DNA of 64,000 nt, taken from assembly GCF_011764445.1 (NCBI RefSeq), contig NZ_BLPG01000001.1:6341001-6405000 (forward strand), read 5' to 3'. The stretch comes from Phytohabitans rumicis. Lineage in GTDB: Bacteria > Actinomycetota > Actinomycetes > Mycobacteriales > Micromonosporaceae. Made by a program: the position numbers and the translations under genes. The notes beneath the pieces are model-generated. The model did not search any database and was not told the DNA's origin. It saw only the letters and a program-made list of their open reading frames with translations. Shown piece by piece: positions 39,101 to 48,812 of the stretch. The first letter of the stretch is position 1. Every line of letters begins with the position of its first letter.

Positions 39101-40287
39101 ATGGCCAAAAGCCAGTTCGTGCGTACCAAGCCGCACCTCAACATCGGCACGATGGGGCACGTCGACCACGGCAAGACCACGTTGACGGCCGCCATCACGA
39201 AGGTCCTCGCCGCGCAGGACCCGTCGGTCAACCGGTTCGTGTCGTTCGACGGCATCGACCGGGCGCCCGAGGAGGTCGCGCGGGCATCACCATCAACATC
39301 GCGCACGTCGAGTACGAGACGGCGACGCGGCACTACGCCCACGTCGACATGCCGGGGCACGCCGACTACGTGAAGAACATGATCACGGGGGCGGCGCAGG
39401 TGGATGCCGCGATCCTGGTCGTCTCGGCGCAGGACGGCGCGATGCCGCAGACCCGCGAGCACGTGCTGCTCGCCCGGCGGGTCGGCGTGCCGTACCTGGT
39501 GGTGGCGATGAACAAGGCCGACGCGGCGGACGACGAGGACCTGCTCGACCTGGTCGAGCTGGAGGTGCGCGAACTGCTGTCCGGGTACGGGTTCCCCGGC
39601 GACGAGGTCCCGGTCGTACGGGTCTCCGCCCTGCGCGCGCTGGAGGGTGACCCGCGGTGGACGCAGTCCATCGTGGACCTTCTCGACGCGGTCGACCGGT
39701 ACGTGCCGGTGCCGCCCCGGGAGCTCGGCGAGCCGTTCCTGATGCCGATCGAGAACGTGCTCACCATCTCCGGCCGCGGCACGGTCGTGACCGGCGCGGT
39801 CGAGCGGGGCGCCCTGAAGGTCGGCGAGCCGGTCGAGGTCGTCGGCCTCGGCCCGACCCTGTCCACTGTGGCCACCGGGCTGGAGACGTTCGGCAAGTCG
39901 CTGGACCGGGCCGAGGCGGGCGACAACGCCGCGGTGCTGCTGCGCGGGGTCAAGCGCGACCAGGTACAGCGCGGCCAGGTGGTCGCGCTGCCCGGGTCGG
40001 TGACGCCGCACAGCAGGTTCCGGGCGCGGCTGTACGCGCTGACGACCGCGGAAGGCGGGCGGCACACGCCGTTCCTCGCCAACTACCGGCCGCAGTTCTA
40101 CTTCCGTACCACGGACGTGCCGGGCTCGGTGGACCTCGGCGACGTCACGATGGTCATGCCGGGGGACACCGTCGACCTCGACGTGACGCTCGGCAAGGCC
40201 GTGGCGATGGAGGTCGGCCTCGGCTTCGCAGTCCGCGAAGGCGGCCGCACAGTCGCGGCCGGCACCGTAACGGAACTGCTCACCTGA
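39101..40287 (+). CDS. tuf: Elongation factor Tu, divergent paralogue (apparent frameshift)
   Basis: Begins [23 protein letters not shown] motifs [13 protein letters not shown] and NKAD, then domains 2 and 3 ([23 protein letters not shown]...[13 protein letters not shown]). The frame breaks at the G-run 39282-39284; one added G restores [16 protein letters not shown]. About 395 residues. It differs from standard EF-Tu (DMPGH instead of [14 protein letters not shown], a [13 protein letters not shown] segment) and is not next to rpsL or fusA, so it resembles the extra tuf genes (tuf2/tuf3 type) of streptomycetes, some of which confer elfamycin tolerance. Role here inferred. Confidence 0.85.
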
Positions 40288-40357: not shown

Positions 40358-40960
40358 CTACGCCAGGTCGGGCGGCTCCAGGCCGACCTCGCGGGCCGCC
40401 GACTGGTGGATCCAGTCGGTGAGCTGGCGGCGGGTGATCACCCGTTCGTGGACGGTGACCTGGGCGGCGAGCCCGTCGATCACCGCGAGGATCCGCCAGG
40501 CCGCGCCGCTGGCGTCCTCGCACTTGAAGACGCCGTCCGCGACACCCGCGGCGATCACCTCGGTGAGCGCTTCTTTCCAGCGCAGGTCGAGGCGGCGCGA
40601 GACCTTTTCCAGCTCGGGTGCGCGCATCGACTCGGACCAGCCGTCGATCCACATTGCCCACGACTTGGAGCGCCCCTGCGGCGCGTACAACTTAATGATC
40701 TTTTTGAGCTTTTCCAGCGGCGTCGATGACGAGTCGACGACGGCCGCGAGGCGGGCGAGATCCTGCTCGGCCGCGTACGCGAACGCCCGCGCGAGCAGCC
40801 GCTCCTTCGTGGCGAAATGGTAGAAGACGAGGGCCTGGCTGACGCCCGCGGCGGTAGCCACGTCGGCGGTGCGGGTGTTGGCGAGCCCTCGTTCCACGAT
40901 CACTTCGCAGGCGGTGCGCAGCAATGCGTCCAGGCGTACTTCCGCGGATCGTCTCGTCAC
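40358..40960 (-). CDS. TetR-family regulator (BetI-like C-terminus)
   Basis: About 200 residues from GTG 40960; TACTGT (40973-40968) 7 bases upstream fits a leaderless start. The HTH is RTADVATAAGVSQALVFYHFATKERLL; the C-terminal helices (WAMWIDGWSESMRAPELEK) resemble BetI-type domains. Divergent from the TRAP transporter operon with about 163 bases between them, which contains an 8-bp inverted repeat TTCGATTT/AAATCGAA (40989-41036). It may regulate itself and the transporter. Confidence 0.88.
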   Translation of the reverse strand: MTRRSAEVRLDALLRTACEVIVERGLANTRTADVATAAGVSQALVFYHFATKERLLARAFAYAAEQDLARLAAVVDSSSTPLEKLKKIIKLYAPQGRSKSWAMWIDGWSESMRAPELEKVSRRLDLRWKEALTEVIAAGVADGVFKCEDASGAAWRILAVIDGLAAQVTVHERVITRRQLTDWIHQSAAREVGLEPPDLA

Positions 40961-41123
40961 AGCGCACACAGTAACTCATGAATGCCTCTTCGATTTTCGG
41001 CGTGATTCGCGCGCAATTTTCACGCACGAAATCGAATACCGGGGTAATCGTCGAAGATCACGAGAGGGAAACGATGGGGTTCGCCAATCGGTCGATGTCG
41101 CTGTCCTGTTGTATCGTCTCGTC

Positions 41124-43156
41124 ATGTCGGACAGCCAGGTCAGCATCGCCCGATCGGCCGACGCCAAGCCCGACATGCCGGATTCGGTCGCCCAGGACGG
41201 GGCGGCGCCGTCCACCGTCCACTTTGACGACGAGGAGCGGCCGGCCCGCGAGTTGACCGGGCGGATCGGCGGCGCGGTCGCGATCGCCGCGTTCGCGGTG
41301 GCGCTGCTCGTGCTGTGGCAGGTCTTCCGCCCGCTGGCCCAGGGCAGCCAGTTCTATCTGATCATTTTTCTCGCCGGCGTATTGCCGCTCGTCTTTCTGG
41401 CGTACCGATCGGGAATGCCCTGGATCGACCGGCGCGACGGGCCGGCGGTGGCCGACTGGATCCTCGCCGGCCTGGCCCTGGCCGTCTGCCTGTACCCGGT
41501 GCTGCCGCTGGCCGGCGGCTACAACGGCTTCCTCGACCGGCAGGGGCTGCTCGACCCGCTCGACGTGGCGATGGGCGCGCTGCTGCTGGTGCTGGTCCTG
41601 GAGGCGTGCCGGCGCACGACGGGTTGGGTGCTGCCGGCGGTGTGCCTGCTCTTCCTGGCGTACGGCTACTACGGCGGGCTGCTCCCGCAGACCTGGTCGA
41701 TCGCCCACGCCGGCCTCGACTTCAGCCAGATCGTCGACGCGCTCTACAACTCCGGCAGCGGCTTCTACGGCACGCCGCTCGACGTGGCCGCGACGTACAT
41801 CGTGCTCTTCACGATCTACGGCGCGGTGCTCGACCTGTCCGGCGCCGGGCGGTTCTTCGTGGACCTGTCGGTGGCCGCGTTTCGCCGCTCGCGCAGCGCG
41901 GCCGGGCGCACCGCCGTCGCCTCCGGCTTCCTGCTCGGCACGGTCTCCGGATCCGGCACGGCCACCGCCGTCAGCGTCGGGGCGGTCACCTGGCCGATCC
42001 TGCGCCGCGCCGGCTACCCGGCCGAGCAGGCGGGCGGGATGCTCGCCGCGGCCGGGGTCGGCGCGATCCTGTCGCCGCCCACGCTGGGCGCCGCGGCGTT
42101 CATCGTCGCCGAGTACCTCGAGGTGTCGTACCTGACCGTCCTCGGCTGGGCGATGATCCCCACGGTCCTGTACTACCTGGGCATCCTGCTCGCCGTCGAG
42201 ATCGACGCGCGCCGGTTCGGGATGCGCCAGATCGAGGTCGGCGCCCGGTCGCCGTGGCGGTTGCTGGCCCGCTTCGGCTACCACTTCTCCTCGCTGGTGG
42301 CCATCGTCGTGCTGCTCGCCGCCGGGGTCAGTGCCACCAAGACCGTCGTCTACGCCACAATCCTCGCGTTTGGACTGTCCTTCCTGGACCGTCGTGGCCG
42401 GCTGACGCCGAAGCGGTTGTTCGAGGCGCTCTCCGCCGGCGTACGCGGGGTCCTGCCGGTCGCCGCCGTCTGCGCCGCGGCCGGCGTCATCACGGCGACC
42501 ACCACCAAGACCGGCCTCGGCGCGCAGCTGGCCTCGCAGCTCGTACGCGGTGCCGAGGCCCTCGCCGACAACCGTACGGCCGTGCTCGCGCTCACCGTCG
42601 TCTTCGCGGCCGTCGCGCTCTCCCTGCTGGGCCTGGCGGTGCCGGTGACCGCGTCGTTCATCATCGGCTGGGTCATCATCGGGCCGGCGCTGCTCGCCCT
42701 CGACGTGCCCGCCCCGGCCGCCGCGATGTTCGTCTTCTACTACTCGGTGCTCTCCGAGGTGACGCCGCCGACCGCGCTCGCCGCCGTCGGCGCGTCCGCC
42801 ATCACCGGCGGGCGCACGCTGCCGACCATGTGGCAGGCCCTCAAGTACGCCCTGCCGGCTTTTCTCGCCCCGCTCGCGTTCGTCCTCACTGGACCGGGGA
42901 GTACCTGCTCGGGCGCGGGCCCGCCCTCGGTGTCCTGTGGGCCACCGCCGCCGCCTGCCTCGGCGTCGCCGGCCTCGCCGCCGCGACCGGCGGCTGGGTG
43001 CTCGGCGTCGGCCCGGCCGGCCCGCCCGCCCGCGTCCTCGCCGGCGCCGGTGGGCTCCTGCTGCTCTACCTGCACCCGGTCACCATCGCCGCCGGAGTGG
43101 TCCTGCTCCTCGCGACCGTCGGGACCACGCTCGCCGTCCAAAGGAGACAGTCATGA
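41124..43156 (+). CDS. TRAP transporter fused 4TM-12TM permease (TAXI type; apparent frameshift)
   Basis: About 677 residues from ATG 41124. After a hydrophilic start come about 17 membrane helices; TRAP-large signature segments include GGYNGFLDR, TLDVAATYIVLF-like, SGFLLGTVSGSGTATAVSVG, GAILSPPTLGAAAF and FYYSVLSEVTPPTALAA. The frame shifts at the G-run 42896-42899; adding one G gives TGPGEYLLGRGPAL and the last helices. It forms a secondary transporter for organic acids, driven by an ion gradient, with the TAXI protein encoded next (4-base overlap ATGA). Confidence 0.88.
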
Positions 43157-44157
43157 GGCGCACGTCCATCCTCGTCGTAGCCAGCGTTCTCGTGCTCGTC
43201 GCCGGGTGCGGCGGCCGGCAGGACACGGCCAGCACCGACACGGGTGGCGCGGTGACCTGCGAGGTCGCCACCGACACCCGGATCGGCATCGCCACCGGCA
43301 ACGCGACCGGGGTCTACTTCGCCCTCGGCAACGCGTACGCGGAGCAGATCGGCGCGGCCACGAGCGGCAAGGTCAAGGCGACCGCGGCCGAGACGGGCGC
43401 CTCGGTGCAGAACATCCAGCAACTCGTCGCCGGCACCTACACGGTGGCGTTCTCGCTCGCCGACACCGCGGCCGACGCCGTACGCGGCACCGGCAGTTTC
43501 GACGGGAAACAGCAGCCGGTGCGGGCGCTGTCCCGCATCTACACCAACTACACGCAGGTCATCGTGCGCACCGGGGCCGGCATCAACACGGTCGCCGATA
43601 TGAAGGGCAAGCGTGTCTCGACCGGCTCGCCCAAGTCCGGCACCGAGGTCATCGCCAACCGCCTGCTGCAGGCCGCCGGCCTCGATCCTGCCAAGGACGT
43701 CTCCGCCCAGCGCCTCGACCTGCCCAAGACCGTCGACGGCATGAAGGACGGCACGATCGACGCGATGTTCTGGTCCGGCGGGCTGCCGACGCCCGGCGTC
43801 ACCGACCTCTTCACCACCGCGAAGGGCAAGGTCGCGTTCATCGACATCACGCCGTTGCTGCCGGAGCTGCAAAAGATCAATCCGGTGTACGAGGAGGGCG
43901 CCGTCCCCGCGGCGACCTACGGCACCTCGGCCGACGTCAAGACCATCGTGGTGCCCAACCTGCTGCTGGTGAAGGACGACCTTGACGCCAACCTCGCCTG
44001 CGTCCTGACCAAGGCGCTCTTCGACCGTAAGACGCAGCTGGAGCAGGCGAACGCCGCCGCCAAGGCGATCAGCCTGGATATCGCCCGAAAGACGGAACCT
44101 GTGCAGCTGCACCGAGGCGCGACCGCCGCCCTCGACACGCTGAACGCTCCAAAGTGA
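43153..44157 (+). CDS. TAXI-family TRAP solute-binding lipoprotein (first of two)
   Basis: 334 residues. Lipoprotein signal MRRTSILVVASVLVLVAGCG with Cys as acylation site. TAXI hallmarks: IGIATGNATGVYFALGNAYAEQI, TAAETGASVQNIQQL, KRVSTGSPKSGTEVIANRLL, DGTIDAMFWSGGLPTPG. It captures an unknown ligand outside the membrane and delivers it to the fused permease, whose gene overlaps by 4 bases. A second TAXI protein with the same motifs lies at 46831. Confidence 0.93.
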   Translation: MRRTSILVVASVLVLVAGCGGRQDTASTDTGGAVTCEVATDTRIGIATGNATGVYFALGNAYAEQIGAATSGKVKATAAETGASVQNIQQLVAGTYTVAFSLADTAADAVRGTGSFDGKQQPVRALSRIYTNYTQVIVRTGAGINTVADMKGKRVSTGSPKSGTEVIANRLLQAAGLDPAKDVSAQRLDLPKTVDGMKDGTIDAMFWSGGLPTPGVTDLFTTAKGKVAFIDITPLLPELQKINPVYEEGAVPAATYGTSADVKTIVVPNLLLVKDDLDANLACVLTKALFDRKTQLEQANAAAKAISLDIARKTEPVQLHRGATAALDTLNAPK

Positions 44158-44235
44158 ACGGAGCGGCACGATCGGTTCGCGCGAGGTGACTGTGCAGGGA
44201 TGCCGTAGCGGGCCGAATGGGCCGATCGTGAGCGG

Positions 44236-46461
44236 GTGGTGTCTTCCGGCGAGGTCGCCCCGCACCAGCATCGCCTCCGTCCACTGCGCTCGATCGGCGT
44301 ACGCATCCTGCTGCCGGTGCTCGTGGCGACAGTCGGCCTGGTCACGCTGGGCGTGATCCAGACGCGTGCCGCGCTCACCGAGTCGACGCGGGCCGGTGAC
44401 GCGCGCGTCCTCGCCCGTACGGCCAACGCCGGCGTGGCCCTCGCGCACCAGGCCGAGCTGGAGTACGCCGAGACCAACGCGCTCCGGCTGCGCGGCGGTC
44501 AGGCCGGCAGCCAGCTCCTGACCGCCCAGCGGGTACGCACGGACGCCGCCCGGGTCCGGTTCGCCGACGCCGCCGACCAGGCCCGCGAGGCCGCGCCCAG
44601 CTTGGCGCCGATGCTCGACGCGGCCGACGCCGTGCTGGAGATCCTGCCCCGGGTACGCGCCATCGCGGTCAGCTCGCCGGACGGCTCGCCCGAGGTGTTC
44701 GACGCGTACAACGCGGTGACCCACGCCATGATCGGTATCGCCGACGCGGTGCCCAGCCAGCTCACCGAGCCGGCGCTGGTGGAGCGGGCCCGCGCGGTCG
44801 TCCTGGTCACCGAGCTGGAGCACCTGGCGTCCGAGCAGCTCGACCTGCTGCGGCGGGTGTTCACCCGGCAGGCGCTGCAGCCCGGCGAGCTGGTCCAGTT
44901 GGCCGGCTGGGCCGGCGCCGAAGAGCAGCAACTGGAGGTGATCGAGCGGCTGCCCGGCCCGGCCGCCCGGCGCTTCGAGGAGCTGGTGTCCGGCACCGAC
45001 GTCGCCCGCGCTCACCAGCTGCGCGACGCGGTCCTCACGTCCGGCGGGGCGCCCGCGTCGCTGCGCGTCGACCCCGACGTCTGGTACGTCGCCCAGAGCG
45101 GGCTGCTGCGCCGGCTCCGCCTCATGCAGTCCGAGCTGTCGGTCGGCATGGAGCGCGAGGCGTACGACATCCAGGTCGCCGCGCACACCCGCACCCTGGT
45201 CGTCGGCGTACTGACCGGGCTACTCGTCGGCCTGGCCCTGGCCGGGGCGATCATCCAGGCCGTACGCACCAGCCGCCGCCTGCGCCGGATGCGCGCCGCC
45301 GCCCTGACCGTCGCCCACCGGGAGTTGCCCGAGGCCGTCGCCCAGGTGTCCGGCGCCCGCGACGAGTCCGCCGTACGCGGCATGCTGTCCGAGTCCGGGT
45401 CCAGAGTGGACGGGATGCTGCCGGCCAGTACCGACGAGATCGGCGAGCTGGCCACGGCGTTCTCCACCGTGCACCGGCAGGCGCTGCGGCTGGCGGCCGA
45501 CCAGGCACTGCTGCGCATGGAGATGGCGGCCACGTTCACCGCGCTGTCCCGGCGCGGGCAGACGCTGGTGCAGCGGCAGCTCCACATGCTGGAGGAGTTC
45601 GCCCGCGCGGAGGCCGACCTAGGTGCCCAGGCGCGGCTGCTCGCCCTGGACCACCTGGCCGCCCGGATGCGCCGCAACGAGGAGAACCTGCTGGTCCTGG
45701 CCGGCGGCGACCCGGGGCGCCGGTTCGTCGAGGCGGTCTCCGTACGCGACGTGATCCGCCTCGCGGCCGCCGAGATCGAGGAGCCGGCGCGCATCGAGGC
45801 CGTGGCCACGCCCCTGGTGGCGGTCGCCGCGCACGTAGTCGGCGACGTGGTGCACCTGCTCGCCGAGCTGCTGGAGAACGCGACCAGCTTCTCGCCGCCC
45901 ACCACCCTGGTCCGGGTCGCCGCCCGGCAGGCCGTCGACCACGTGACGCTCACCATCTTCGACGAGGGCATCGGCCTGACCGCCGACAACCTCGCCGAGG
46001 CCAACGACCGGATCGCCCACCCGTCCGCGCTGACGAGCGCGCTGGTCGGCACGATGGGCCTGCTGGTCGTGGGCCGGCTGGCCGAGCGCCACGGCGTACA
46101 GGTCCGCCTCACCAGCGTCGCCGGCGGCGGCACCGCCGCCACCGTGACCCTCCCCGAACGCATGCTCGCCCCCTTGCCCCCACCGCCACGTACGGCACGG
46201 TCGATCAGTCGATCCTGGAGTGCGGCGTTGCCACGGCGGACGCCTACCCCGGCGTTGCCCAGCGGGCCTGTCGCGGGGCGTCCCATCCACGGGACGCCCG
46301 ATCCCGATGAAGTTCGGGCGCGGTTGTCGAGTCTGGCCAGTGGCATTGCGGCCGGGCGCCGTTCGGGACCACCAACCACACCCACACCTGAGGCACACAA
46401 CCCGGAGGACCTTCATGAAAAACGCTACGGACTCCCCTCCGGGCCTCGTCGACTACGGTGA
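44236..46461 (+). CDS. Conservon-type (CvnA-like) sensor kinase with nitrate-sensor-like outer domain
   Basis: 741 residues: first membrane helix (about 21-40), a helical outer domain (40-325) with NIT-like makeup, second helix (about 326-346), HAMP-like RRLRRMRA, helices with FTALSRRGQTLVQRQLHML, and a GHKL ATPase domain (LLAELLENATSFSPP at about 540, FDEGIGL, VGTMGLLVVGRLAERHGVQV). No clear HisKA phosphoacceptor is seen, as in CvnA proteins. C-terminal VRARLSSLASGIAAGRR is typical of these kinases. Its end overlaps the roadblock gene by 47 bases; a frame error there is possible. It lies between two TAXI genes, which is unusual. Confidence 0.85.
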   Translation: MVSSGEVAPHQHRLRPLRSIGVRILLPVLVATVGLVTLGVIQTRAALTESTRAGDARVLARTANAGVALAHQAELEYAETNALRLRGGQAGSQLLTAQRVRTDAARVRFADAADQAREAAPSLAPMLDAADAVLEILPRVRAIAVSSPDGSPEVFDAYNAVTHAMIGIADAVPSQLTEPALVERARAVVLVTELEHLASEQLDLLRRVFTRQALQPGELVQLAGWAGAEEQQLEVIERLPGPAARRFEELVSGTDVARAHQLRDAVLTSGGAPASLRVDPDVWYVAQSGLLRRLRLMQSELSVGMEREAYDIQVAAHTRTLVVGVLTGLLVGLALAGAIIQAVRTSRRLRRMRAAALTVAHRELPEAVAQVSGARDESAVRGMLSESGSRVDGMLPASTDEIGELATAFSTVHRQALRLAADQALLRMEMAATFTALSRRGQTLVQRQLHMLEEFARAEADLGAQARLLALDHLAARMRRNEENLLVLAGGDPGRRFVEAVSVRDVIRLAAAEIEEPARIEAVATPLVAVAAHVVGDVVHLLAELLENATSFSPPTTLVRVAARQAVDHVTLTIFDEGIGLTADNLAEANDRIAHPSALTSALVGTMGLLVVGRLAERHGVQVRLTSVAGGGTAATVTLPERMLAPLPPPPRTARSISRSWSAALPRRTPTPALPSGPVAGRPIHGTPDPDEVRARLSSLASGIAAGRRSGPPTTPTPEAHNPEDLHEKRYGLPSGPRRLR

Positions 46462-46834
46462 CCTGGGCTGGTTGCTGACCTCGTTCGCCCGCAAGGTGCC
46501 GGCGATCGTCTACGCGGTCGCGGTGTCGGTGGACGGGCTCGCGCTGGCTTCCTCCGATCAGATCGAGCCGGACCAGGCCGACCAACTCGCCGCGATCACG
46601 AGCGGGCTGGCCAGCCTCGCGACCGGCGCGGCGAAGTGCATGCAGACCGGGCAGATCCGCCAGTCCGTGCTGGACATGGACGGCGGCGTACTCCTGATCA
46701 TGTCGGTCGCCGACCGGGCGTACCTGGCCGTGTTCGCCGAGCCGGGCGCGGACCTCGGCCAGGTCGGCTACGAGACCGCGGTGCTGGCCCGGCGCGTCGC
46801 GGCGGCGCTGGAGCCCGCAACCCGGCCATCGTGA
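46415..46834 (+). CDS. Roadblock/LC7-domain protein (CvnB-like)
   Basis: 139 residues. DLGWLLTSFARKVPAIVYAVAVSVDGLALASS starts the roadblock fold (given in pieces: LGWLL, VPAIVYAVAVSVDG, LALASSD), followed by AITSGLASLATGAAKCM, GVLLIMSVADRAYLAVF. In conservons CvnB binds the GTPase CvnD. Here no DUF742 or GTPase gene follows; a TAXI lipoprotein gene starts at the overlapping GTGA. ATG 46415 has GGAGGA upstream. Confidence 0.9.
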   Translation: MKNATDSPPGLVDYGDLGWLLTSFARKVPAIVYAVAVSVDGLALASSDQIEPDQADQLAAITSGLASLATGAAKCMQTGQIRQSVLDMDGGVLLIMSVADRAYLAVFAEPGADLGQVGYETAVLARRVAAALEPATRPS

Positions 46835-47775
46835 GGCGGCTCCTCGGGGCGCTGGCGGTGCTGGCGCTGGCCGGCTGCGCCCCCGAGCCCCCGGGCGACC
46901 TGCGCGCGGGGCACCTGGTCGTGGGCACCGGCAACACGACCGGCGTCTTCTACCAGGTCGGCGGCGCGTACGCCGACGTGATCACCGCGCACCTGTCCGG
47001 CTTCGAGGCGATCGTCGCGCCCACCGCCGGCTCCGCGGACAACCTGCTGCGCCTCGGCCAGGGCGACGTGGACATCGCGCTGACGTTCGCCGACGTGGCG
47101 GCGGACGCCGTACGCGGGCGCGGCACCTTCGCGGAGAGCCCGCGCCAGCTGCGCGCCCTCGCCGTGGTCTACCAGAACTACACCCACCTCGTGGTGCGCG
47201 CCGACGCCCGCATCAAGTCGCCGGCCGACCTGCGCGGCAAGCGGGTGTCCACGGGGACGGTCAACTCCGGCACCGAGTTCCTGGCGCTGCGCCTGCTGCG
47301 GGCCGCCGGCCTCGACCCGGACCGGGACATCAGGCGGGTCAGCCTGTCGCTGTCGGCCACCACCCGAGGGCTGGAGGACGGCACGATCGACGCGACCTTC
47401 TGGTCCGGCGGGCTGCCCACGGTGGGCATCACCGAGCTGGTCGGCTCGGGGGCCCGGGTCAGCTTCCTGCCGCTCGACGGGCTGCTCCCGGAGCTGGACC
47501 GGCTCTTCCCGGCCACGTACGCGGCGGGGTCCATCCCGGCCAGCGCGTACGGGCTGCCCGGTGACATACCTACCGTCTCCGTCGGCAACCTGGTCGTCGT
47601 CGACGCGGCGATGCCCGAGTCGCTGGCGCACGACCTCACCGCGCTGATCTTCGAGCACCGGGAGGAGTTGGTGGCGGGCCACCCGGAGTGGGGCTCGATG
47701 CTGCGGGACAACGCCGGGCGTACCGGGGTGGTGCCGCTGCATCCGGGCGCCCAACGGTTCTACCAGGGCGGATAA
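46831..47775 (+). CDS. TAXI-family TRAP solute-binding lipoprotein (second)
   Basis: 314 residues from GTG 46831. Lipobox LALAGC within the first 18 residues; VVGTGNTTGVFYQVGGAYADVI, APTAGSADNLLRL, KRVSTGTVNSGTEFLALRLL and DGTIDATFWSGGLPTVG parallel the first TAXI protein motif by motif, so the two are paralogues. There is no second permease gene, so this copy may share the permease or feed a signal to the adjacent kinase rather than transport. Confidence 0.92.
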   Translation: MRRLLGALAVLALAGCAPEPPGDLRAGHLVVGTGNTTGVFYQVGGAYADVITAHLSGFEAIVAPTAGSADNLLRLGQGDVDIALTFADVAADAVRGRGTFAESPRQLRALAVVYQNYTHLVVRADARIKSPADLRGKRVSTGTVNSGTEFLALRLLRAAGLDPDRDIRRVSLSLSATTRGLEDGTIDATFWSGGLPTVGITELVGSGARVSFLPLDGLLPELDRLFPATYAAGSIPASAYGLPGDIPTVSVGNLVVVDAAMPESLAHDLTALIFEHREELVAGHPEWGSMLRDNAGRTGVVPLHPGAQRFYQGG

Positions 47776-47792
47776 GCCGTACCCTGATATGG

Positions 47793-48812
47793 GTGTTTTT
47801 GATCCGTACTGCCGGTGTTGTCCTGTGTGCGGCGCTGGCGGCCTGTACGCCTTCCGCCCGGCCCGGCGCGTGGGTGGCTCCGGCGCCCTCGTCGCCGCCC
47901 GCGGACGTCACCCTTGCCTTCGCGGGCGACGTGCACTTCGCCGGCCGCACGGCGGCCCTACTGGACCGCCCGGAGACGGCCTTCGGGCCCATCGCCGCCA
48001 CGCTCGCCGCCGCCGACGTCGCGATGGTCAACCTGGAGACCGCCGTCACGACCCGCGGCACCCCTGAGCCGAAGGAGTTCCTCTTCCGGGCGCCGGCCAG
48101 CGCGTACGCCGCCGTGAAAGCCGCCGGCGTCGACGTCGTCTCGCTGGCCAACAACCACGCGCTCGACTACGGCCGCACCGGCCTCGCCGACACCGTGGCC
48201 GCGGCGCGGTCGGCCGGCGTACCCGCGGTAGGAGCAGGCGCGGACGCCGCGGCCGCCTACGCCGCCTGGACCACGACGGTACGCGGGACGACAATCGCGT
48301 TCCTGGGCTTCAGCCAGGTGGGTGAGCTGTGGGAGCGGTGGCGGGCGACCGAGGCGCGAGCCGGCATCGCGATGGCCCACGAGCGGGCGCGCGCGGTCGC
48401 CGCCGTCCGCACGGCGAGCGCCGGCGCCGACGTGGTCGTCGTGTACGTGCACTGGGGCCAGGAAGGCAACGACTGCCCGACGGCGCAGATGCGCGGCTTC
48501 GCCACCGCCATGGCCCGCGCCGGCGCCGACGTGGTGATCGGCACCCACGCCCACCTCCTGCTCGGCGACGGCTGGCTGGACCGGACCTACGTGCAGTACG
48601 GCCTGGGAAACTTCCTGTGGTGGCGGGACGACGCGTACAGCAACGACACGGGCGTGCTGCGCGTGACCCTGCGCGGCGGCACAGTGGCCGCCACCGAGCT
48701 CGTGCCGGCGGTCATCTCCCGCCGCACCGGCCAGCCGGCACTGCCCGCCGCGCGGGAGAGTGCCCGGATACAGAGTAAATACGTGGATCTACGGGGGTGT
48801 ACGGGTCTATGA
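47793..48812 (+). CDS. CapA-family (metallophosphatase-fold) lipoprotein
   Basis: 339 residues from GTG 47793, 17 bases after the TAXI gene. Lipobox LAACT near residue 18. Metal-site motifs: AFAGDVHFAG, MVNLETAV, VSLANNHALDYG, VYVHWGQEG and IGTHAHLL, then YGLGNFLWW, all CapA/PgsA family marks. Some relatives act in poly-gamma-glutamate capsule formation; others are uncharacterised phosphoesterases. It may belong to the transporter cluster or be independent. Confidence 0.9.
   Translation: MFLIRTAGVVLCAALAACTPSARPGAWVAPAPSSPPADVTLAFAGDVHFAGRTAALLDRPETAFGPIAATLAAADVAMVNLETAVTTRGTPEPKEFLFRAPASAYAAVKAAGVDVVSLANNHALDYGRTGLADTVAAARSAGVPAVGAGADAAAAYAAWTTTVRGTTIAFLGFSQVGELWERWRATEARAGIAMAHERARAVAAVRTASAGADVVVVYVHWGQEGNDCPTAQMRGFATAMARAGADVVIGTHAHLLLGDGWLDRTYVQYGLGNFLWWRDDAYSNDTGVLRVTLRGGTVAATELVPAVISRRTGQPALPAARESARIQSKYVDLRGCTGL

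Follow-up and report, generated by a model that had tools for sequence, protein, structure and literature searches.

In a 64,000-nucleotide stretch of the Phytohabitans rumicis genome (family Micromonosporaceae, genome size about 10.7 Mb; contig NZ_BLPG01000001.1, positions 6,341,001 to 6,405,000; the window hereafter) we found that the gene for a TAXI-family solute-binding lipoprotein, TAXI 2, belongs to a conserved operon together with the genes for a conservon-type sensor kinase and a roadblock protein. Comparison with related genomes suggests that TAXI 2 is likely an extracytoplasmic ligand receptor serving this kinase and not a transporter component. The operon stands next to a TRAP permease gene and a second TAXI gene, TAXI 1, and together these make up five genes on the plus strand at positions 41124-47775 of the window:

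41124..43156, plus strand, fused TRAP permease of the DctQM type (TIGR02123, 395 bits; DctM PF06808)
43153..44157, plus strand, TAXI 1, solute-binding lipoprotein of the permease (TIGR02122, 252 bits; within the TRAP-linked TAXI clade)
44236..46461, plus strand, CvnA-like kinase of 741 residues (Pfam NIT PF08376, 86 bits, residues 69-303; HATPase_c, residues 538-642)
46415..46834, plus strand, roadblock/LC7 protein, CvnB-like, of 139 residues (PF03259, 68 bits; within a clade without DUF742 and GTPase)
46831..47775, plus strand, TAXI 2, solute-binding lipoprotein, proposed outer sensor of the kinase (TIGR02122, 243 bits; model pLDDT 90.6)

Genes were called with a codon model; since it overlooks membrane proteins, homology was used to add those. 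Profile matches confirm the genes, order and strand given by an earlier, sequence-only reading of the window, and the coordinates agree with the junctions it described: permease and TAXI 1 overlap by 4 bases, 78 bases separate TAXI 1 from the kinase, kinase and roadblock overlap by 47 bases, and roadblock and TAXI 2 by 4 bases.

A conserved kinase-roadblock-TAXI 2 operon

Kinase, roadblock and TAXI 2 form a conserved operon in Micromonosporaceae. In a survey of 250 genomes of the family, TAXI matches were found in 210 (E 1e-20) and roadblock matches in 248 (E 1e-35), and 60 stretches were fetched, chosen from both the TAXI and the roadblock matches listed. The tree built from this survey (L numbers denote loci and G numbers genomes) holds 36 TAXI rows (35 places, L096 and L124 being the same) that lie directly after a roadblock gene. 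Since these loci were partly picked by roadblock score, a better figure comes from a survey of named genomes chosen by TAXI 2 alone, in a list led by TAXI 2 itself. Among the best 80 of 165 confirmed TAXI 2 relatives, the gene comes immediately after a roadblock gene in 48 cases, comes after a TRAP permease gene in 31 and lies at a contig end in one. The roadblock-linked loci comprise 47 titled with Micromonosporaceae genera or the family name and one unplaced metagenome-assembled genome (L192), and the predicted overlap between roadblock and TAXI gene is 4 bases in 30 of the 48. The permease-linked relatives come from genera of Streptosporangiaceae and Geodermatophilaceae, and from one unplaced metagenome-assembled genome. 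Both surveys thus reject a gene order unique to this genome, a possibility that the sequence-only reading had raised itself, and the kinase and roadblock genes next to TAXI genes that it proposed to look for elsewhere are found. Two of the loci, L174 and L176, share a contig and score equally. When plasmids were searched with the kinase, 35 records came up, all with matches below 60% identity.

Two separable modules

The sequence-only reading had described one transporter cluster built around the kinase. We found instead that the locus consists of two modules side by side, TRAP-TAXI 1 and kinase-roadblock-TAXI 2. In four other genomes of the genus (G001, G002, G003, G005) kinase-roadblock-TAXI 2 lies directly beside a TetR regulator gene with no permease in between, and in G002 and G003 the TRAP-TAXI 1 pair is present at a separate place (L033, L034). 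In a fifth, G004 (L032), only a broken remnant of the kinase comes after TetR and TRAP-TAXI 1; this stretch gave no roadblock match, and its sole hit with TAXI 2 is the TAXI 1 gene. TRAP-TAXI 1 without a kinase, beside a TetR homologue, occurs in seven stretches from other genera (L080, L081, L083, L084, L086, L091, L092).

In the family survey TRAP-TAXI 1 lies directly upstream of the operon in the window and in L077-L079, L094, L096, L114, L119, L121 and L126-L129, and is divergent to it in L111; other operon loci have no TRAP-TAXI 1 nearby. Among the 48 roadblock-linked loci of named genomes a TRAP permease gene is present upstream in 24, none is found within about 7.5 kb in 18, and six stretches end too early to judge. 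One of the 18 permease-less loci, L217, carries a TAXI 1 fragment.

A search of 32 genomes with the fused permease profile TIGR02123 gave matches in 11. For 26 of these genomes the kinase-roadblock-TAXI 2 locus had been read: 11 match and 15 do not, nor do the six genomes in which the locus was not read. The 15 permease-less genomes span g1, g4, g8, g10, g17, g22, g23, g27, g33, g39, g43 and g44 of our labelling and include G001, an assembly of one contig at 89% completeness. The DctM profile had no match in G001; in G005 it hit a single place, split in two and distinct from the fused type. GltS (PF03616), with the fused TRAP permease the other transporter family searched, is found in 0 of the 26 genomes. 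A need of TAXI 2 for a fused TRAP permease or GltS is therefore rejected, and so is the sequence-only reading's reservation that the second TAXI might always come with a permease of its own. The operon is independent of both transporter families, and a binding-protein gene is here stably linked to a sensor kinase gene independently of a transporter.

TAXI 2 and the NIT domain

The lipoprotein cysteine of TAXI 2, Cys16, is kept in 16 of 16 aligned relatives. The TAXI 2 model is closest in fold to solved TAXI proteins, and ArrX 6x8w is among its fold matches. In the kinase, two hydrophobic segments recognised by eye flank an all-helical NIT domain, followed by an LDHLA motif and HATPase_c. The sequence-only reading had rightly called this protein CvnA-like, leaving its NIT sensor domain unnamed. 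Both the profile (PF08376) and a fold match confirm this domain. The kinase model (pLDDT 77) matches NasR 4akk and histidine kinases. The LDHLA histidine, H473, is kept in 18 of 18 kinases; according to passages of PMC13343842, CvnA8 autophosphorylates on a histidine, H183.

We compared evolutionary distances over 79 loci that carry kinase, roadblock and TAXI 2 (only kinases longer than 600 residues were used), of which 54 remained after near-duplicates were dropped. Distances of TAXI 2 and NIT correlate at 0.94 over the 54 loci, and the partial correlations of TAXI 2, each given the other two partners, are 0.80 with NIT, 0.37 with the kinase core and -0.28 with the roadblock. For comparison with TAXI 1 we used 38 loci that also carry TAXI 1, 23 of them after near-duplicates were dropped. 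Given the other TAXI, the core and the roadblock, the value is 0.67 for TAXI 2 and NIT versus 0.09 for TAXI 1 and NIT. A link between TAXI 2 and NIT is suggested by these distances.

All 18 TAXI-linked kinases tested carry NIT. In G032 (L097:7705-9667) the roadblock (79% identical) and the kinase core are kept and NIT is absent: its kinase can be aligned, in a single frame, to the parts that flank residues 49-296 of the window kinase and has no NIT match, and no TAXI match was found in this genome at E 1e-20.

A roadblock branch without DUF742 and GTPase

The sequence-only reading spoke of a solute-binding-protein-coupled conservon that lacks its usual DUF742 protein and GTPase. The CvnA-like kinase (NIT and HATPase_c) and the adjoining roadblock gene are indeed conservon features, and there is no match to DUF742 (CvnC) or the GTPase (CvnD) beside the window genes. 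Because it is without these two, the system is not a conservon as defined. Elsewhere in the same genome there are five DUF742 matches over the cut-off, each with a roadblock-like gene before and a GTPase-like gene after it by eye, as in complete-looking conservons. Among the family-survey stretches a CvnC match was found only in L125, and over family and named-genome stretches the CvnD matches are confined to L125, L202 and L212, each of which has a complete conservon.

A tree of 38 roadblock rows places the 30 without DUF742 and GTPase on one side of a branch (support 100/98), with the eight roadblocks of complete conservons outside. Because the former make up one clade, the loss of DUF742 and GTPase is, judged from this tree, old, and a recent loss at this locus is rejected. 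The 30 comprise 18 TAXI-linked roadblocks, seven near ctaD (six of them also with Trk-like potassium genes), two with Trk-like genes, ctaD and TAXI, and three alone. The residues W19, F24, D40 and G41 are kept in 16 of 16 aligned roadblock members, and by our reading the Asp-Gly pair at 40-41 falls on the Asp33-Gly34 spot of MfpD, which is linked to GTPase action in passages of the preprint PMC13015309.

Members of this kinase-roadblock branch lie near ctaD in L105, L106, L108-L110, L112, L113, L131 and L132, with Trk-like genes beside all except L108; L112 and L113 also have a TAXI gene after the roadblock. In L202 (a Micromonosporaceae metagenome-assembled genome, 2-8960) a complete conservon is shortly followed by kinase-roadblock-TAXI 2. 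Nonomuraea indica (L152:2-5578) carries a NIT-HATPase-roadblock fusion, then an OmpR-type regulator, then TAXI; the unit is divergent to a TRAP-TAXI pair and lies opposite a HisKA kinase. In a groundwater Actinomycetota metagenome-assembled genome (L212:1012-8936) a complete conservon of NIT kinase, roadblock, DUF742 and PF03029 GTPase-type protein lies directly upstream of a TRAP-TAXI pair. L152 and L212 say that conservon-type kinases and TAXI/TRAP genes meet more than once.

TAXI phylogeny and pairing with kinases across the class

TRAP-linked TAXIs (36 rows) occupy one side of a branch with support 99/90, and the TAXI 2 proteins branch apart. An origin of TAXI 2 as a recent duplicate of TAXI 1 is rejected by these separate branches and by the 44% identity of the two window proteins. 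In a larger tree of 92 rows, which leaves out class-survey TAXI frames above 420 residues, TAXIs linked to two-component systems, to TRAP permeases and to roadblocks cluster by context, the roadblock-linked ones lying near the TRAP-linked clade, with three changes.

A survey of the class found TAXI in 43 of 148 genomes at E 1e-15, and 60 stretches were taken around most of the 72 matches listed; 57 of them yielded 63 TAXI genes. Counting as paired any TAXI gene that has a histidine kinase no more than two genes away and a response regulator no more than three, we found 43 of the 63 beside both, 39 with these alone and four also with a TRAP permease. A further 13 have the permease only and seven have neither, six of the seven being weak matches. 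In the same stretches none of 131 genes six or more genes away was near such a kinase, nor was any of 708 genes from 58 further stretches; this lenient control counts only kinases resembling the queries, which came from TAXI loci. Because the 43 genes adjoin ordinary two-component systems, coupling of TAXI and kinase is wider than the sequence-only reading supposed. The third TAXI of the window genome and the corresponding loci of seven relatives all have a kinase and a regulator beside them (8/8).

In 13 of the 60 class stretches TAXI, kinase and regulator occur with amino-acid ABC genes like those of L223 (L223, L225, L232, L238, L239, L242, L243, L246, L247, L250, L253-L255). Six of the 60 carry genes that we take to be TctA-like and TctC-like; NCBIfam did not recognise them. 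L231, L235, L237, L248 and L252, from other families of the class, combine a TAXI-kinase-regulator unit with more TAXI genes and low-scoring TRAP permeases.

Ligand residues

In VcGluP, Y45 and above all Q93 matter most for glutamate binding (passages of PMC11574862). We mapped these residues onto the window proteins via TtGluBP Q78, given in the same source. The equivalents are F40 and F86 in TAXI 2 and Tyr55 and Leu102 in TAXI 1, by which glutamate binding exactly as in VcGluP is rejected for both. Glutamine at the Q93 position is found in 0 of 25 roadblock-linked rows and 0 of 15 TRAP-linked rows of the family, in 2 of 17 other TRAP-linked rows and in 5 of 32 rows linked to two-component systems. 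Because of F40 and F86, and because none of the 25 roadblock-linked rows has the glutamine, the ligand of TAXI 2 is probably not glutamate held in the fashion of VcGluP.

Proposed mechanism and alternatives

We propose that the TAXI 2 lipoprotein would close on a small solute, which is probably an amino acid or a carboxylate, and in its closed form would contact the outer NIT domain of the kinase. The signal would then cross the membrane to the conserved histidine and ATPase core and pass on to the roadblock. Because no GTPase is encoded with the operon, the roadblock would most likely act in trans on the GTPase of a complete conservon elsewhere in the genome; alternatively, the kinase may drive a response regulator. 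Where TRAP-TAXI 1 adjoins, switching on uptake of the sensed solute would be a likely job.

Several alternatives have to be weighed against a receptor role. TAXI 2 keeps the TAXI fold and profile, and with a permease upstream in half of the roadblock-linked named loci it might be a second solute-binding protein of the neighbouring TRAP permease that widens its substrates, the kinase and roadblock lying between by chance or regulating the transporter. We consider this unlikely, as 15 of the 26 operon genomes have no match to a fused permease, TRAP-linked TAXIs form their own clade, and all 47 titled Micromonosporaceae relatives in the best 80 of 165 follow a roadblock and none a permease. A little less probable still is that TAXI 2 feeds another, unlinked transporter, co-transcribed with its regulator, as in the TAXI-GltS case of Bordetella. 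TAXI proteins can serve non-TRAP transporters (passages of PMC12344293), but the operon genomes lack GltS, no transporter gene lies between kinase and TAXI 2, and the distances of TAXI 2 track the NIT domain. Alternatively NIT alone might sense, for example nitrate, with TAXI 2 as a passenger target gene or solute scavenger. NIT domains sense nitrate or nitrite in some proteins (passages of PMC13343842), and six of nine kinases of the same clade with no TAXI next to them have NIT; nevertheless this explanation seems just as improbable as a second binding protein for the permease, since many genera conserve the order of kinase, roadblock and TAXI, often with no permease, NIT and TAXI are lost together in G032, and TAXI and kinase genes pair throughout the class.

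A receptor role thus remains the likely one, with a number of observations weighing against it. The data show gene identities, linkage and its age, conservation, clade structure and independence from fused TRAP permeases and GltS, whereas ligand, direct contact and output, meaning the path from roadblock to a GTPase in trans or to a regulator, are inferred. Six of nine kinases of the same branch without an adjoining TAXI score above the NIT cut-off (L106 43 bits, L108 60, L109 47, L110 85, L118 115, L131 79; no such match in L097, L105 and L132), and therefore NIT can work alone. The published accessory sensors described in passages of PMC13343842 go with CvnA proteins without NIT, which is present here. 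The joint loss of NIT and TAXI concerns one genome, and no second genome of the genus of G032 was found. The correlations derive from non-independent distance pairs and carry no significance value; they are weaker in 18 Micromonospora-like loci (0.48 for TAXI 2 and NIT versus 0.085 for TAXI 1 and NIT), and if the other TAXI is not used as covariate TAXI 1 and NIT also correlate highly over the 23 loci, at 0.62 versus 0.81 for TAXI 2. The kinase-linked TAXIs do not form one well-supported clade in the 92-row tree, with three changes, although this tree is still compatible with a single origin. Finally, the TetR homologue beside kinase-less TRAP-TAXI 1 in the seven stretches noted above means that the transporter may be run by TetR. 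Taken together, the sensor role that the sequence-only reading gave to the second TAXI is well supported by comparative evidence, while its framing as part of a single cluster did not hold.

Neighbouring genes and reading frames

Three further genes flank the locus:

40358..40969, minus strand, TetR regulator, divergent (PF00440, PF13977)
47688..48812, plus strand, PGA_cap (CapA-like) gene, downstream (PF09587)
39101-40281 of the window, EF-Tu-like paralogue beyond the TetR gene, with a frame change near 39285

The five other genomes of the genus (L032, L036-L039) conserve both the TetR and the EF-Tu-like gene at this locus, and TetR adjoins the kinase in four of them and the permease in one. 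The PGA_cap gene is probably not part of the system, since among the family-survey stretches it is matched only in L032.

The identification of the permease as a fused TRAP permease stood, its description as a single open frame did not: the reading frame changes near 42900. The frame from 41124 aligns with the permease of a relative (L032), itself a single open frame unlike that of the window, up to about 42920, and a different frame, ending at 43156, encodes the C-terminal 85 or so residues; the TIGR02123 match stops at 531 of 615. A fused DctQM permease thus lies beside a TAXI gene, as in TAXI-TRAP systems, and the function of this copy is predicted only, given the frame change. As the EF-Tu-like gene changes frame too, there are two frame changes within 4 kb, which makes sequencing errors as likely as decay.

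Significance and comparison with known systems

How conservon kinases and their possible partners work is largely unexplored, according to passages of PMC13343842. Searches of an open-licence literature library gave no description of a TAXI receptor for a conservon-type kinase. TAXI 2 is a candidate receptor for the open question of conservon kinase input; the protein should be easily purified and screened for ligands, and kinase sensing becomes testable in cultured Micromonospora and Dactylosporangium species. In a wider picture, to which we give even chances, a branch of conservons would long ago have lost DUF742 and GTPase, gained a TAXI outer receptor and may feed the GTPases of other conservons in trans, and most actinomycete TAXIs would be kinase receptors and not transport proteins. 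The annotation 'TAXI family TRAP transporter solute-binding subunit' could accordingly be misleading for many actinomycete proteins, perhaps including the TAXI that, going by gene order alone, seems to lie beside Streptomyces GluK/GluR.

Sensor kinases coupled to a binding protein are known from ArrX-ArrS, AioX-AioS, LuxP-LuxQ, TorT-TorS and BctC-BctE, in which a periplasmic-type binding protein, as receptor, is encoded together with a sensor kinase and the kinases signal to response regulators or phosphorelays. In contrast to these pairs, a conservon-type kinase is here followed by a roadblock gene. Our naming of class loci after GluK/GluR is presumptive, taken from gene order and not from sequence. 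By gene order the 13 class stretches with amino-acid ABC genes are like the glutamate-sensing GluK/GluR locus of Streptomyces (passages of the review PMC9739842, in which TAXI is not mentioned). Such loci have a HisKA-type kinase and an OmpR-type regulator, while the window has a NIT kinase and a roadblock.

With TAXI-TRAP systems, namely VcGluP/VcGluQM (passages of PMC11574862) and the Thermus thermophilus protein 1us4, the window shares the binding-protein fold and profile and the pair of permease and TAXI 1; it differs in TAXI 2, which has no fused permease to go with it in 15 of the 26 operon genomes and has Phe in place of Q93 of VcGluP. As in TAXI-GltS (passages of PMC12344293), a TAXI is freed from the TRAP permease, but its partner here is a kinase, with GltS in 0 of 26 genomes. 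Conservons (AGPS), such as Cvn8 with CvnF8 (passages of PMC13343842), share the CvnA-like kinase with NIT and HATPase_c, the overlapping roadblock and an accessory gene possibly feeding the kinase; here the DUF742 protein and the GTPase are absent. Instead of a GAF or P450 protein the accessory here is an outer TAXI lipoprotein, and whereas the published accessory genes overwhelmingly go with kinases without NIT, the kinase of the present operon has kept it.

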